Origin: Tubulanus polymorphus | Lineage: Eukaryota > Nemertea > Palaeonemertea > Tubulaniformes > Tubulanidae | Length of the DNA: 64,000 bases | Direction: 5' to 3' | Assembly: GCF_964204645.1 (NCBI RefSeq) | Contig: NC_134027.1 | Span: 4,018,485-4,082,484, forward strand | In this document: positions 46,075-52,880 of the stretch, piece after piece | Position numbering within the stretch: the first letter of the stretch is position 1 | Layout: every line of letters begins with the position of its first letter | Made by a program: the position numbers and the translations under genes | Notes under the pieces: model-generated | The model's database searches: none | The model's input: the letters and a program-made list of their open reading frames with translations, nothing else | Told to the model about the DNA's origin: nothing

Positions 46075-49000
46075 ATGATTCTTTTAGGTAAATTGCCGTG
46101 AAATCTACGGATGGATGGAGTCTGGACGGTCAAGAAGATATCGATTCTTATTTATTCATTCTGTTTGAACTTTTTAGCCTGGCCCCTGAATGTTAACGGC
46201 CCGTAAAATGCTTAAATGGTAATCTTTTTTAGATCTGAGTGAAGTACATATTTTAGAATCTGCGTTGCGACATGCCCTACAACGCGATCAGTGTCAACAA
46301 CCGGATGACATCGACATCGGTTATATCCAATTAAGAGCTATCAGAAATGTTGGGGTTAATGAACAAGAGTTGTTGCATTGTATTAGAAATAACCAGGAGA
46401 TTTTAGATGAAATAGTTGTAAATGCTGATGATGATTGCTGGAGTAAGTGGTGCGCTAAAAAAGCTGCAGGTATGGTACAGTTTCAATTCCAACAAGGCTT
46501 GTTTTTTTAACGCGGAGTACAGCTTTTATTAGATAAAAAACAAAATGATAGAGTGAAAGGAAAGAAAATAGAAATAAGATCTTTCATCTCGGAAGGACTG
46601 TAGAAAAAAATTGAGGAGTGAAAATTGTTTAAAATTTAATTAAGATGGGAGAAACTAAGAATCATACAAATATCGTTATTTTATTTCTTGTTTCTAGTTA
46701 AAGTTAGGCAGAACATAAACCCAAAGACGCAGTCAAATCACTTGAACTCGATGACTGATGACATAGTAACGAGAATCAGTAACATTGTTGAATCAGCGGA
46801 TATATTTCCTGTTGACAGTAATTCAAATGATAGTCTTAAACGGATAACGCGAACAGAAACTGATAATGAAGATTTCTTCTACGTCGATGATGACAAAGAT
46901 GCTGATTTCGTTCCTAATGACGCGGAATGTCTTACGGATCAATCGTCAAATACGGATTTCGCTGAACCATCTACGTCTAGAAAACCGCCGGGTAAGTATA
47001 CCACCCTAAAACAAGTCTAATAAGGAGCATTCAAATACAGTATAAGACAGTGCAAGTCATATGTGATTGAATAACAATACTGAGTGAATATTCATCATCT
47101 CAAGAATATTGCCATTATTTCGTTTTAGATAATGGTGAAAAAAGTTCAGAAACAACAGATGGTGAAAACATTTCTTCTGGTGAGTGTGTAACAATTCAGA
47201 AATGTCACTTGTGCAGTCGGTTATTTCTTACAGATGAGGAGCTGATCGAACATTTTGCCTGTTTTCACGACGGCTTTTTACCGTTTAAATGTAACGTATG
47301 CGGTTCCGGTTATAACGTCCTCGAAGAGCTGGTCGTCCATCACGTAGAATATCATAGATCTGACGATAAACCGAAACCGACACTCGTATGTAGATTATGT
47401 GATGAAAATTTCGATGAAGATCGACGTTACATCGAACACTGCACCGATGAACATCCGCATGAAAACCCGCTCTCTTGTGGAAAATGCGACAAAGTAATTT
47501 CGTCTTTACATCAATTAAAGCGTCACCAAGTTTTACATTCGACTACGAAACGTTGGATCTGCGAGAAATGCGGCGTAGGATTCACACGTAAAGACGTGCT
47601 GAAAAATCACACGCGCGTAATACACGATAAACTGAAAACCGTCGAATGCGGTATTTGTAACCAGAAGTTTTCGAATCGATCTCAACTTACGTTACATACA
47701 CGCGTGCATACGCGTGAACGACCGTTCTCATGTACGGTCTGCGATCGCAGGTTCGCCGAGAAAGGTAAAATGACTAAACACATGCGAATTCATACGAATG
47801 AACGGAACTATCAGTGTTCATGGTGTGATAAACGATTCCGCGAGCATCCATTGTTGGTACGACATGAACGCACCCATACCGGAGACCGGCCTTTCAGTTG
47901 TGATATTTGTGGAATCGCGTTCTCTCGTAAAGACTCGCTTCTAGTTCATAAACGCGGCATTCATAAAGTATTTACTCATGGCGACTTATTGAAAAAAGAA
48001 CCTGGATAGATAGTCGATTGAATTTAATCGAACATATTTGACTCCTCTCTACTTTGTATAATGGTCAGCCAGTAAACTGTTGGTTTTGGTTTGAAATTTC
48101 TACTGGCACCTGTAGAATTTTTACCATTTGCAGCTTGCCCCATTTGTGTAAAATACTAATGATTGACATTATCTTAGTCTTCTTGAGAAATGAATCTACA
48201 ATTTCGTTTCTTTGTTCGCGAACATGTAAACATAAATAAATATGCATTGTATCAAATGGGTATATATTGTATTTTATGAATTTCTCTTCAGAACTCTCCA
48301 CAATATCTGATTTGGATGATTGTTTCAGGTTCAGGTGAAGAGTATACGCCTTCGAAACAGAGAAAAACGCGACTATCTACAGCTGGACGATCTAAACCGC
48401 GGCCTCCTCGTCGTAAAATCACAAAATATCTTCCGTTTGATTGTTGCGCTAACTGTCGATTGTGTTCGAAATCATTCGTATCCGAGGAAACGTTGAAAGA
48501 ACATTTTAGAATCATGCACAGTTCAGAACCTGTGTATTGGTGTGATATATGCGATATCGGAGACTTGGACTGGTCGTCTCAGGATTTAGTCGAGCATCGA
48601 GCGAACAAACATGACAGCGCTAGAGATACTAAGAGGAGAGGTCGACCGCCGCGAGTTGATTTTGATTTAACGTGTCGTTTATGCAGAAATGTACAATCCT
48701 CTCATGTAGCGTTGAAGGAACATTTTAAAATCTCTCATCCCGGTTTATCGGCGTATCAATGTCGGGAATGTAATAAATGCGTGACATCTTTTCGACAGTT
48801 GAAGTTTCACATGGCCAGTCATTCCGGGCACCGGCCTATTAAATGCAGCCATTGTGACTCTACGTTTGCATGCGAAAGCTCGATGCAAGCTCACTTTAAA
48901 CGTCGACATAATCCTGAAAGAGAGCGTCGTTGGATTTGTCACAAATGCGGCCTGGCTTTTTACGAACGCGTAACGATGCAGTCTCATTTAGCTTTACACA

Positions 49001-52000
49001 CGAATATACGTTATCCGTGTGATATCTGCGGAGCGAAACTTTCCAGTAAAGGACACGTCAAAAAGCACATCGCGTCCATACACCGCGGTGAAAAACATCA
49101 TCGTTGTCCCGAATGCGGTCAGCGTTTCTTTGAACTAGCGGCTCTTCGTCAACATCGACGCGTACATTCCGGAGAGAAACCTTTCAGTTGTGATATCTGT
49201 CAACATCGATTCGCGCGTTCTGATATGGTTCTGGTTCATAAACGCTTGGTTCATAAGTTGATTATTCCAAAACGAAGCGAAAAATTGTACTGAATATACC
49301 GGTACTTCTTATATGTTATATTGGCATTCATTTATAACTGCGCAGTACAGACTTTTCAGGAAAAAAGATGTAAGGGCAAATGTAAAAAGTGCATCTGTAC
49401 TCCAAGTGATTAAAAAGCCCAAGTATTTCTAGATGTTTTGTTTTTGTGATATCACTACACAGGGTCCCTACAACTCCTTGATTCCTTGAAAATCCTTCTA
49501 AACAAAAAATATTTTTCAAGGTACTTGAATATGCTTGAATGTGAGCAAAATGCCCAAAAGTCCTTGAAAATTCCTTGAATTTTGAGAAATTGGCTCTTTT
49601 TTTGGCTCTGGGTCTACTTATCATATACACAGAATTCCACCGAATTAAATGGTTTACTGAGAAAAACAGTACTGAATTAGGAGGTGTCAACAGTAATTGA
49701 GATATGAAAGGGATACAGACACTACTCGAAATTTTCTCCTTGAAAAGTCCTTGAATTCTGGAATGACTGCTATGTAGGGACCCTGCTACAGTACATTGTA
49801 CAAATACGATGTGATTTGGTCATCAGATGATTGTTTGAAAATGAATGTCAAATTACGTACATGTATTCATCTTTAGTAGTGAATAAAAGTACTATTTTTT
49901 ACTTGGTCGTGAAAAATATGTTTAATGTTATTGGGAGTATAGTTGTTGTGATGGTTTTTATTTTCAGACTGGTCTAAAATGGAACATCCACAAAAACGAT
50001 TAAAACTGACGAATTCTGAAAAAACAAACGATTCGGAACTCATCGAAGCCGATATTGGAGCTGCTGGTGATCACAAGTTGGATCTCGATGTGGATGACTT
50101 GATCGGAAATGATTTAGATTTGAGGCCATTACTATCGGATATTGTTGATGAAAATAATGATTTTGAAAATTTAAGGACGTTTGAAAACAATCAAAAACAA
50201 GCGCAGAAAAAAGTGAATTTAGAATGTCGTTTGTGTCTGGATGAGTTTTCAACTCACGGAGATTTCAGAAATCACTTTCGCACAACTCATCCTCAGACGA
50301 AGCCGTATATGTGCACTACGTGTGGTGATGTATTCTCATATGAACAGTGTTTGGAATTTCATATAGAAAAACAGCACAACAGCGACAAACCTGATGGGTG
50401 GATCAAGCCAGAAATTAATTGCGCGTATGAACTTGTTTGTAGAATATGCAATGAAATTGGAGATATAAAAAGTCATTTTGATCTAGTTAAACATTTTGAA
50501 AAGGAGCACCCAACTTTGTTTCCATATTTGTGCATTATTTGTGGTGTCTGTTTCCCGGGTTTTAGTAGACTACAAATTCATTTACAAGATGTTCATGAAT
50601 GTGAAGTTTATACAGCAAGCGATGATATTACTGAATCATGCCGGAGTGATAAGCAATTATCAGTCGATTATTGTGCGGATATAGTTTGTCACATTTGCGG
50701 AGAACTCTCATGCAATCCGCTCAGTCTAGCGAAACACTTTAAGATAAAACACGGTGCGTGGAAACCTTTCATTTGTGTCATCTGTGAAATCACTTTCAGT
50801 TCTCTTTCAAAGTTAAGAGGTCACCAACTAAAAGAGCATGCAGTCAATAAGGTGGAATATGACGAAGACGTTGTTAAGAAAAAGAATTTCCCAGAAGTAC
50901 CCGCTTACAGACTGTATTGTCAGGAGTGTAATATCAATTTAGAAAAACATATTCCTTATATTGAACACTTTCGAACATATCACGGAGAAGAACGACCTTA
51001 TTCCTGTCGCGATTGCAACCAGAAAATGAAGACTTTGTCGGCGTTGAATTATCATTATCGAGTGAAACATTTAAACTATTCGATGTTTACTTGTGACGTC
51101 TGCCAGAAACCGATGCGAAATTCGCAGCTTTTAGAACTTCACAAATTAACTCATCTCGATCGAAAAACTCGCAAATCGTTACATCGTTTTATGTGTTCCG
51201 ATTGCGGAGCTGCGTTCGAACGCAAGAGTTTACTCGATTCGCACATCCGCAGCAAACACACGAATGAAGTGACTGATGTGTGCGACGTATGCGGGAAAGT
51301 GTTTTACAATAAAGAAAATCATCGAACGCACATGAAATTCCACGCCGGAATTAAGAAATATAACTGTAATATTTGCGATAAAAGATTTGTAACTTCGTCG
51401 ATGTTGACGCGCCATTTAACGGTTCATAAATCGAAGAAATCGCATCAATGTCCCGTGTGTCTGAAATGGTTTGCGAGGAACGATTCGATGAAAGCTCATT
51501 GTCGTTCATTTCACAGACTAGAAATTTTACAAACATCGACCGCATCAAATACTGCTTCATTCACGTGTGATATCTGTATGGAAACATTCCCGACTAAGTC
51601 CATCCTCGATGTACATTTTACGAAACATTTAACTGAAGAAATTGGAATCGAAAAATGAGCTTTTGGTACCTATTTGAGAATGGTCAATGTGTGTTATTAA
51701 TCCACCCGAATTCGTTACACTAGTGTCGTACGTGTTCCTGTGATTTAAAAAAAAGGATCTCTTTTTACAGATTTCCTGAACGCGGCAGACCCGCCAAAAG
51801 AAGTTGTACATGCCGCAAAACGACCCAACAGAAATCGGACGGTTAAAAAGACCAACAAACGACTTGTTGGTAGACCTTCCACAGGAGGCTACGAACTGAT
51901 CTGCAGGTTATGTCAGACCGAACACCTTCAACATAAAGCTTATCGTGAACACTTCAAAATCGAACATCCAGGATTTAGACCTTATTTTTGTGAGCAATGC

Positions 52001-52558
52001 GATAAAGCATATGCCTTGTACACTCAATACAGGATACATTGTCGCACGAAGCATATTACAGTCTCCGATAAAATGTACGCTTGTGATCTGTGTGACAAAT
52101 GGTTTATTCAACCTTCTAGTTTGAAACTTCACCAACAAGTGCATCTAAGTGACGAATTAAAAACGCAACTAAAGCGTCACGTTTGTACAATTTGTAACAA
52201 AAAGTTTCGGAGTAGTTCGATGTTAAAAGTGCACGTTATGACTCATACCGGTGAACGTAATGCTATTTGTAATATTTGCGGTCTCGCAACTCGTACTCAG
52301 ACTTTACTCAAATTCCACATGAAAATCCATTCTCAGGAAAAAGATCACAAGTGCCATGTTTGCGGTAGAGGGTTCGTTCAGCCGGGTACTATGAAACGAC
52401 ACCTGCTTTCGCACACCAAACAACGACCGCATCAGTGCGATATGTGTGAAAAACGATTCGCGCGAAAAGACGCTCTTAGAAATCATAGGAAGTCGATACA
52501 CAAATGCGACAATGTTTGTGGTAACAAATCTTTGAGTATAATTTTGCAGAATTCCTGA
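46075..52558 (+). CDS. C2H2 zinc-finger locus with shared 5' exons and four alternative 3' exons
   Basis: Shared exons 46075-46087, 46233-46469 and 46698-46991 encode 181 residues and end in phase 1 (last base G). They contain a compact helical part (residues 5-83, with VHILESALRHAL and QELLHCIRNNQEILDEIV) and an acidic linker (DNEDFFYVDDDKDADF) before PSTSRKPP. This is not a BTB, SCAN, KRAB or ZAD domain that I recognise. Four large exons downstream each begin after a pyrimidine-rich AG in the same phase, carry a C2H2 array and finish in their own stop: 47129-48009, 48329-49293, 49968-51658 and 51771-52558. Joined with the shared exons they give 474, 502, 744 and 443 aa, all in frame. This is the design of Drosophila lola and mod(mdg4): one N-terminus, several DNA-binding ends. 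Separate promoters for some exons cannot be excluded. Confidence 0.75.
47129..48009 (+). CDS. Alternative terminal exon A, 9 C2H2 fingers
   Basis: Acceptor CGTTTTAG, phase 1. Nine C2H2 units follow, from CHLCSRLFLTDEELIEHF to CDICGIAFSRKDSLLVHK, some with HTGDRPF- and HTRERPF-type linkers typical of sequence-specific DNA binding. The exon ends in TAG after KKEPG. A poly(A) signal at 48235 lies before the next alternative exon, so a transcript can end here. As the nearest exon to the shared part, this is probably the default form. Confidence 0.8.
48235..48240 (+). terminator. Poly(A) signal after exon A
   Basis: AATAAA about 225 nt after the exon A stop and about 90 nt before the exon B acceptor. 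Confidence 0.6.
48329..49293 (+). CDS. Alternative terminal exon B, 9 C2H2 fingers and AT-hook
   Basis: Acceptor TTGTTTCAG, phase 1. The exon opens with a basic stretch (TPSKQRKTRLSTAGRSKPRP), has an AT-hook-like KRRGRPPR between fingers 2 and 3, and nine C2H2 units ending CDICQHRFARSDMVLVHKRL. The finger after the hook (CRLCRNVQSSHVALKEHF) is closely related to the first finger of exon D, showing that the exons arose by tandem duplication. Stop TGA at 49291-49293; AATAAA at 49882. Confidence 0.8.
49460..49785. mobile_element. hAT-like MITE between alternative exons B and C
   Basis: Exact 12-bp inverted ends CAGGGTCCCTAC / GTAGGGACCCTG (49460-49471, 49774-49785), flanked on both sides by CTACA. 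The inside is rich in CTTGAAAA/CCTTGAATT repeats. The CAGGG start suggests a hAT-type, 5-bp-duplication element. Confidence 0.75.
49882..49887 (+). terminator. Poly(A) signal after exon B
   Basis: AATAAA about 80 nt before the exon C acceptor, 590 nt after the exon B stop. Confidence 0.5.
49968..51658 (+). CDS. Alternative terminal exon C, 14 C2H2 fingers
   Basis: Acceptor TTATTTTCAG, phase 1, reading DWSKMEHPQKRLKL. A 75-residue acidic lead (DLDVDDLIGNDLDLRPLLSD) precedes fourteen C2H2 units, from CRLCLDEFSTHGDFRNHF to CDICMETFPTKSILDVHF; the first eight are spaced and irregular, the last six are close and canonical. The ATG four codons in means this exon could also start its own transcript with a short leader. 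No AATAAA is seen before the exon D acceptor 113 nt further on. Confidence 0.75.
51771..52558 (+). CDS. Alternative terminal exon D, 7 C2H2 fingers
   Basis: Acceptor CTTTTTACAG, phase 1. It starts with a basic linker (AAKRPNRNRTVKKTNKRLVG) and an AT-hook-like VGRPS, then seven C2H2 units from CRLCQTEHLQHKAYREHF to CDMCEKRFARKDALRNHR. There is no good ATG near its start, so it needs an upstream exon to be translated; this is the best single argument for splicing from the shared exons. Stop TGA at 52556-52558; AATAAA at 52875. Confidence 0.8.
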
Positions 52559-52874: not shown

Positions 52875-52880
52875 AATAAA
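52875..52880 (+). terminator. Poly(A) signal after exon D
   Basis: AATAAA about 320 nt after the exon D stop, near the 3' end of the opposite-strand gene. Confidence 0.5.

Follow-up and report, generated by a model that had tools for sequence, protein, structure and literature searches.

Probable alternative C2H2 zinc-finger ends behind a shared N-terminal domain at a locus of the ribbon worm Tubulanus polymorphus

The window analyzed here is a stretch of 64,000 nucleotides (C3:4018485-4082484) from the genome of the palaeonemertean ribbon worm Tubulanus polymorphus (268 Mb, 77 contigs). Positions without a contig name are those of the window, and all exons described for it lie on its forward strand. 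Four exons form the shared front of the gene. Exon 1 (46075..46087) contains the start codon and encodes M-I-L-L, with one further base; exon 2 (46233..46469) encodes a new N-terminal domain, and exon 3 (46698..46991) encodes an acidic linker. Exons 2 and 3 are in phase 1 on both sides, and exons 1-3 can be joined in phase 1 according to the reading frames. The fourth shared exon (47129..47179) corresponds to the first 51 bases of a longer zinc-finger exon, exon A, and is closed by an internal donor.

A protein search with 100 residues of the shared part returned two T. polymorphus NCBI models, both 100% identical. These are isoforms X2 (P0001, 519 aa) and X1 (P0002, 761 aa) of LOC141901926, and both contain all four exons of the front. 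Isoform X2 is identical letter for letter to exons 1-3, 47129-47179, and end B, and isoform X1 is likewise identical to exons 1-3, 47129-47179, and end C. NCBI alternative models are normally based on RNA reads. The sequence-only reading had placed the end of the shared exons at 46991. Its phase-1 exons 1-3 were retained, but the shared part in both models continues past 46991 to donor 47179, inside exon A. Because both models carry 47129-47179, the junction to the other ends was placed at 47179.

Four zinc-finger ends follow the linker. End A (47129..48009) is a composite terminal exon with 9 C2H2 fingers in an open frame with its own stop, and would be formed if donor 47179 is unused. End B (48329..49293) is a terminal exon with 9 fingers that is exact in isoform X2, and end C (49968..51658), with 14 fingers, is exact in isoform X1. 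End D (51771..52558) is a candidate terminal exon of 7 fingers, with an open frame and a phase-1 acceptor. The finger counts are those of a simple C2H2 pattern, and each of the four ends exceeded the Pfam cut-off for PF00096 (54 to 107 bits compared to 25.2). The four C2H2 exons had been described as phase-matched with their own stops, and this was confirmed by an AG, phase 1, and a stop in each of them.

The splice sites were scored with a rough matrix of approximate frequencies; GT ranks refer to the 7074 GTs that the window contains when its two strands are counted. Donor 47179 (CTG/GTGAGT) scored 11.1, in the top 0.17% of GTs, and donor 46991 scored 11.3, in the top 0.11%. Donor 47179 was the only donor scoring at least 8 within exon A and its 3' flank. 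The donor of exon 1 was weak (top 3.7% of GTs); acceptor 46233 was also weak (top 32% of AGs), yet it is used by both NCBI models. At end B, the highest-scoring AG nearby (48292) is out of phase. At end D, the phase-1 acceptor 51771 was modest (top 10.4% of AGs), with two of the nearby AGs ranking above it.

We consider it likely that a single transcription-factor gene occupies the locus, with an N-terminal half common to all its products and a choice of C2H2 ends. If donor 47179 is unused and the message ends after an AATAAA at 48235..48240, a possible poly(A) signal, end A would be produced. If the donor is used, the front would be joined in cis to B or C, as in the NCBI models, or to D. Since all junctions are in phase 1, each choice would give the same front with a different DNA-binding array. 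The front would presumably provide the effector or partner contact, with target choice left to the ends. The ends would have arisen when a zinc-finger exon was duplicated long ago, and the plan would have expanded further in paralogous loci on C8.

The four ends had also been given equal standing, and this part of the earlier description was abandoned, as models were found for B and C only. No NCBI model ending in A was found among proteins of 260-830 residues, and none ending in D, for which the best match was 37% identical and no match was named Tubulanus. Models for B and C alone would also suit a gene with two ends, in which only these are real, the fingers of A come as a by-product of intron retention, and D is either a relic or a piece of the 3' UTR of C, an explanation that we regard as unlikely. 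The possible poly(A) signals agree with it in one respect. An AATAAA at 49882..49887 may serve end B, with ATTAAA at 49409 and 49644 too, and an AATAAA at 52875..52880 may be common to ends C and D. Because neither AATAAA nor ATTAAA occurs in the 112 bases from the stop of C to the acceptor of D, the message of C probably continues through D, with its end after 52875. However, end A has its own AATAAA downstream, the frames of A and D are intact with 9 and 7 fingers, and coding constraint is indicated on both. Across all six A-D pairs, synonymous differences were 0.75-0.83, replacement differences were 0.44-0.51, and the saturated synonymous sites yield no rates; the comparison suggests long coding constraint on all four ends, including D.

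The positions of the first methionines bear on whether the zinc-finger exons could be separate genes. End D had been described as having no usable ATG near its start, and its first in-frame Met was indeed residue 101, with the first finger at 44. Ends A (first Met 214) and B (first Met 62) likewise have no Met before the first finger. Tandem zinc-finger genes are common, end C has an in-frame Met at residue 4, and NCBI models can err, with some on C8 looking stitched (P0012). These points would suit tandem separate genes, some with their own first exons or promoters, that were joined to the upstream exons by the NCBI pipeline. We hold this to be quite improbable, given the lack of Met before the fingers in A, B, and D, the phase-1 entry of all four ends, and the identical upstream exons of the two models. 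Joining of front and ends from separate transcripts in trans, in part as in mod(mdg4) and lola, deserves the least credit: the family junctions examined are all in phase 1, so that fronts and ends would be interchangeable in principle, and trans-splicing is reported for both fly loci in PMC11426971 and PMC4667647, but with four ends on one strand within 6.5 kb, cis splicing is enough.

The reading of one gene with alternative ends is supported by the exact B and C models, the phase-1 acceptors and stops of all four ends, donor 47179, the missing Met before the fingers of A, B, and D, the codon constraint, and two many-ended loci on C8. Against it count the missing A and D models, the modest acceptor of D, the out-of-phase best AG of B, and the single zinc-finger exon of the nearest paralog in the 9 kb read. 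The claim of one N-terminus with alternative ends held for B and C, which are present in NCBI isoform models, but without the 46991 junction, the phase odds, and the equal standing of the ends.

The phase odds had been given as 1 in 81 for four acceptors. This value fails because the ends are not independent draws; they appear to be old duplicates that likely inherited their phase. Three AGs score at least 4.7 at end B, and three at end D; by our own arithmetic, about 5% of cases would give every exon one or more in-phase AGs even if the exons were independent. The exact match to the NCBI models replaces the phase argument as support.

The relationships among the ends were compared across the genome. 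Among the best 146 of 657 candidates scored, the best matches of D after itself were C, the paralog zinc-finger exon at C3:3985343, B, and A. A tree built from 19 zinc-finger stretches placed A, C, D, and B with the paralog in one group at 88/88, a value under the mark of the tool, which also flagged the long branches. The grouping of B with the paralog was firm (100/99), and end B showed 53% identity to the zinc-finger exon of the paralog compared to 29-32% to A, C, and D. From these sequence relationships, ends A-D probably split before the paralogs separated, and the nearest paralog probably lost, or never acquired, the other ends. The phase-1 entry of A-D was probably inherited.

A MITE-like repeat with inverted ends CAGGGTCCCTA...TAGGGACCCTG lies between ends B and C (window 49460-49785). 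For a 134-base piece of it, the genome contains 40 or more copies at 87-100% identity, counted among the best 40 of 765 candidates scored.

The shared part had been described as an unrecognized domain without BTB, and this was upheld. The shared 181 residues matched no Pfam family at E 10, including BTB and KRAB. ZAD was rejected as a candidate, as none of the 36 PF07776 matches in the genome was at the locus and none was in the shared part. Among 15 paralog pieces, Pfam gave one weak stray match in one piece only (E 0.073). The PDB sequences gave nothing for the shared part, and the profile gave one stray match at E 0.36. Neither of two protein searches, with the shared part or with twelve paralog pieces, returned relatives in other species; both were bounded by protein length, and in the latter the best 8000 candidates by common words were scored. 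All 13 proteins obtained with the twelve paralog pieces belong to T. polymorphus, and 11 of these had C2H2 matches. Literature listings showed nothing on this N-domain family.

In the genome, the window's domain gave 41 matches up to E 10. A paralog consensus gave 44 matches at E 0.01 or below, which include the window's exon 2 (E 1.6e-5). The nearest paralog, C3:3987542, is among the matches of the window's domain and absent from those of the consensus. The sequence-only reading had described one locus. One front with alternative ends probably does occur there, and the domain itself occurs at 44 matched places of the genome. Its core comprises about 40 residues at the protein start. All 13 rows of one alignment have D60, D67, W71, and W74, whereas W71 alone is invariant when 15 pieces, the nearest paralog among them, are compared. 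The window's gene belongs to the family, with the core at the protein start and the W-x-x-W motif, and has about 30 extra residues before the core relative to most copies.

At least 18 of the 44 N-domain places are followed, on their own strand and at no more than 12 kb, by a relative of exon D, a lower bound based on 99 of the matches listed. Outside the C8 cluster, this was the case for at least 9 of 29 places; the opposite-strand control gave at least 3 of 44. One N-domain protein, P0010 (LOC141909522), has a C-terminal half without a Pfam zinc-finger match, and some N-domain fronts may therefore be joined to another kind of end. The NCBI models P0014 and P0015 (LOC141909519 isoforms X4 and X2) carry tandem copies of the linker segment, as if linker exons too had been duplicated and then spliced together.

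The C8 cluster contains 15 N-exons between 11.41 and 11.64 Mb. The region C8:11563501-11593500 (L041-L043) has a single N-exon and a single linker exon, whose phase-1 donor lies after 11565438. Downstream of these the acceptor motif TTCTGATGGCTATTTGCAGG is matched loosely 20 times, and one of the matches is due to chance, judging by its sequence. Of the remaining 19, 16 open phase-1 exons with 2-8 fingers and their own stop, and this count was the same for the longest-frame and the all-phase-1 readings. The other three zinc-finger exons are broken or fingerless. By comparison, the window's locus is much smaller. With up to 3 mismatches, the motif occurs 60 times in the genome compared to 12 times for the reversed control, and 39 of the 60 copies lie within the C8 cluster. 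The twelve-paralog-piece protein search showed no NCBI model for this 16-ended locus.

A second locus, C8:11496001-11516000 (L044, L045), has one N-exon and one linker, and all eight of its motif acceptors are in phase 1 when the motif is allowed up to 5 mismatches and the frame with most fingers (2-4) is taken. Additional finger frames that are not behind the motif were also observed in this region. By coordinates, a third N-exon has five motif acceptors, four have one or two, and eight of the 15 have none. Many-ended loci are therefore a minority even in the C8 cluster. These related loci look able to use many more ends than the window's gene.

The predicted contact residues of the C8 ends were compared between similar exons. 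In the closest pair on C8 (11577209 and 11579878), 8 of 16 predicted contact residues differ. Elsewhere in the fingers 3 of 40 positions do so, and outside the fingers 0 of 88 (Fisher, 9e-4 against other finger positions and 5e-7 against all others). The 14 closest whole-exon pairs listed have exons in common with one another; in 11 of them the predicted contacts differ more than the rest of the finger positions, and in 3 they differ less. One of these three counter-examples has 1 of 8 contacts against 5 of 20 other finger positions. The other pair tested was not significant (17 of 28 versus 33 of 70, p 0.27). A finger-pair contact count of 0.61 versus 0.16 was dropped, as those pairs had been picked by off-contact identity. 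The comparison gives a lead, not proof, for selection on the contact residues of the C8 ends, and gene conversion between fingers could produce the same pattern.

The arrangement was compared with known systems. Like Drosophila lola, the worm gene has one common front and many alternative C-terminal zinc-finger ends; in lola, 17 of 20 isoforms have different C2H2 ends according to PMC11426971. The worm front matches no Pfam family, whereas the lola front is a TTK-type BTB; lola is trans-spliced. The same source reports the TTK type as not found outside Arthropoda. Like Drosophila mod(mdg4), for which at least 30 or 31 isoforms are given in PMC11426971 and PMC4667647, the worm gene has common 5' exons and multiple 3' ends. 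However, mod(mdg4) has a BTB front and FLYWCH ends, some of them on the opposite strand, whereas the worm locus has C2H2 ends on a single strand. The plan of both fly genes, alternative 3' exons with their own stops in one phase, was found for A-D, with models for B and C only. Because BTB is absent, the window's gene is by the defining test not a relative of lola or mod(mdg4).

As in KRAB, ZAD, and FiNZ genes (PMC10547256), a short N-terminal domain exon precedes a finger-array exon, and the family has expanded within one lineage. FiNZ and KRAB genes consist of one domain exon and one array exon in that account, whereas the worm family puts several to many arrays behind one N-exon. The 28-residue FiNZ domain of cyprinid fish is likewise described there as having no significant similarity to known domains.

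On the best reading, the system evolved independently, resembles lola in plan, and is built on a new N-terminal domain. An independent combinatorial transcription-factor gene had been proposed from the sequence, and the BTB-less front, the B and C models, and the recurrence of the plan in paralogs agree with this, but the equality of the ends does not stand. Transcription-factor loci with one front and many ends are best known in insects, on an arthropod-type BTB. If the reading is true, the same plan on an unrelated ribbon-worm domain would have originated independently, and BTB would thereby be shown not to be required for it. With the C8 arrays one could ask whether a fast-changing zinc-finger repertoire can grow by added terminal exons as opposed to gene copying. 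More tentatively, and with doubt prevailing, Tubulanus might possess a superfamily with a domain unknown elsewhere, arrays of alternative ends (16 intact at one C8 locus), and selected contacts. It would be KRAB-like, possibly directed at transposons, and grown by splicing choice, not gene number.

The 36 ZAD-model matches in the genome (e.g., L001-L008) were also inspected. They are just above the cut-off (28-32 bits), nearly all cover model positions 1-60, and many lie in frames of equal length (124 aa). These features suggest a repeat family as opposed to ordinary ZAD-ZNF genes.
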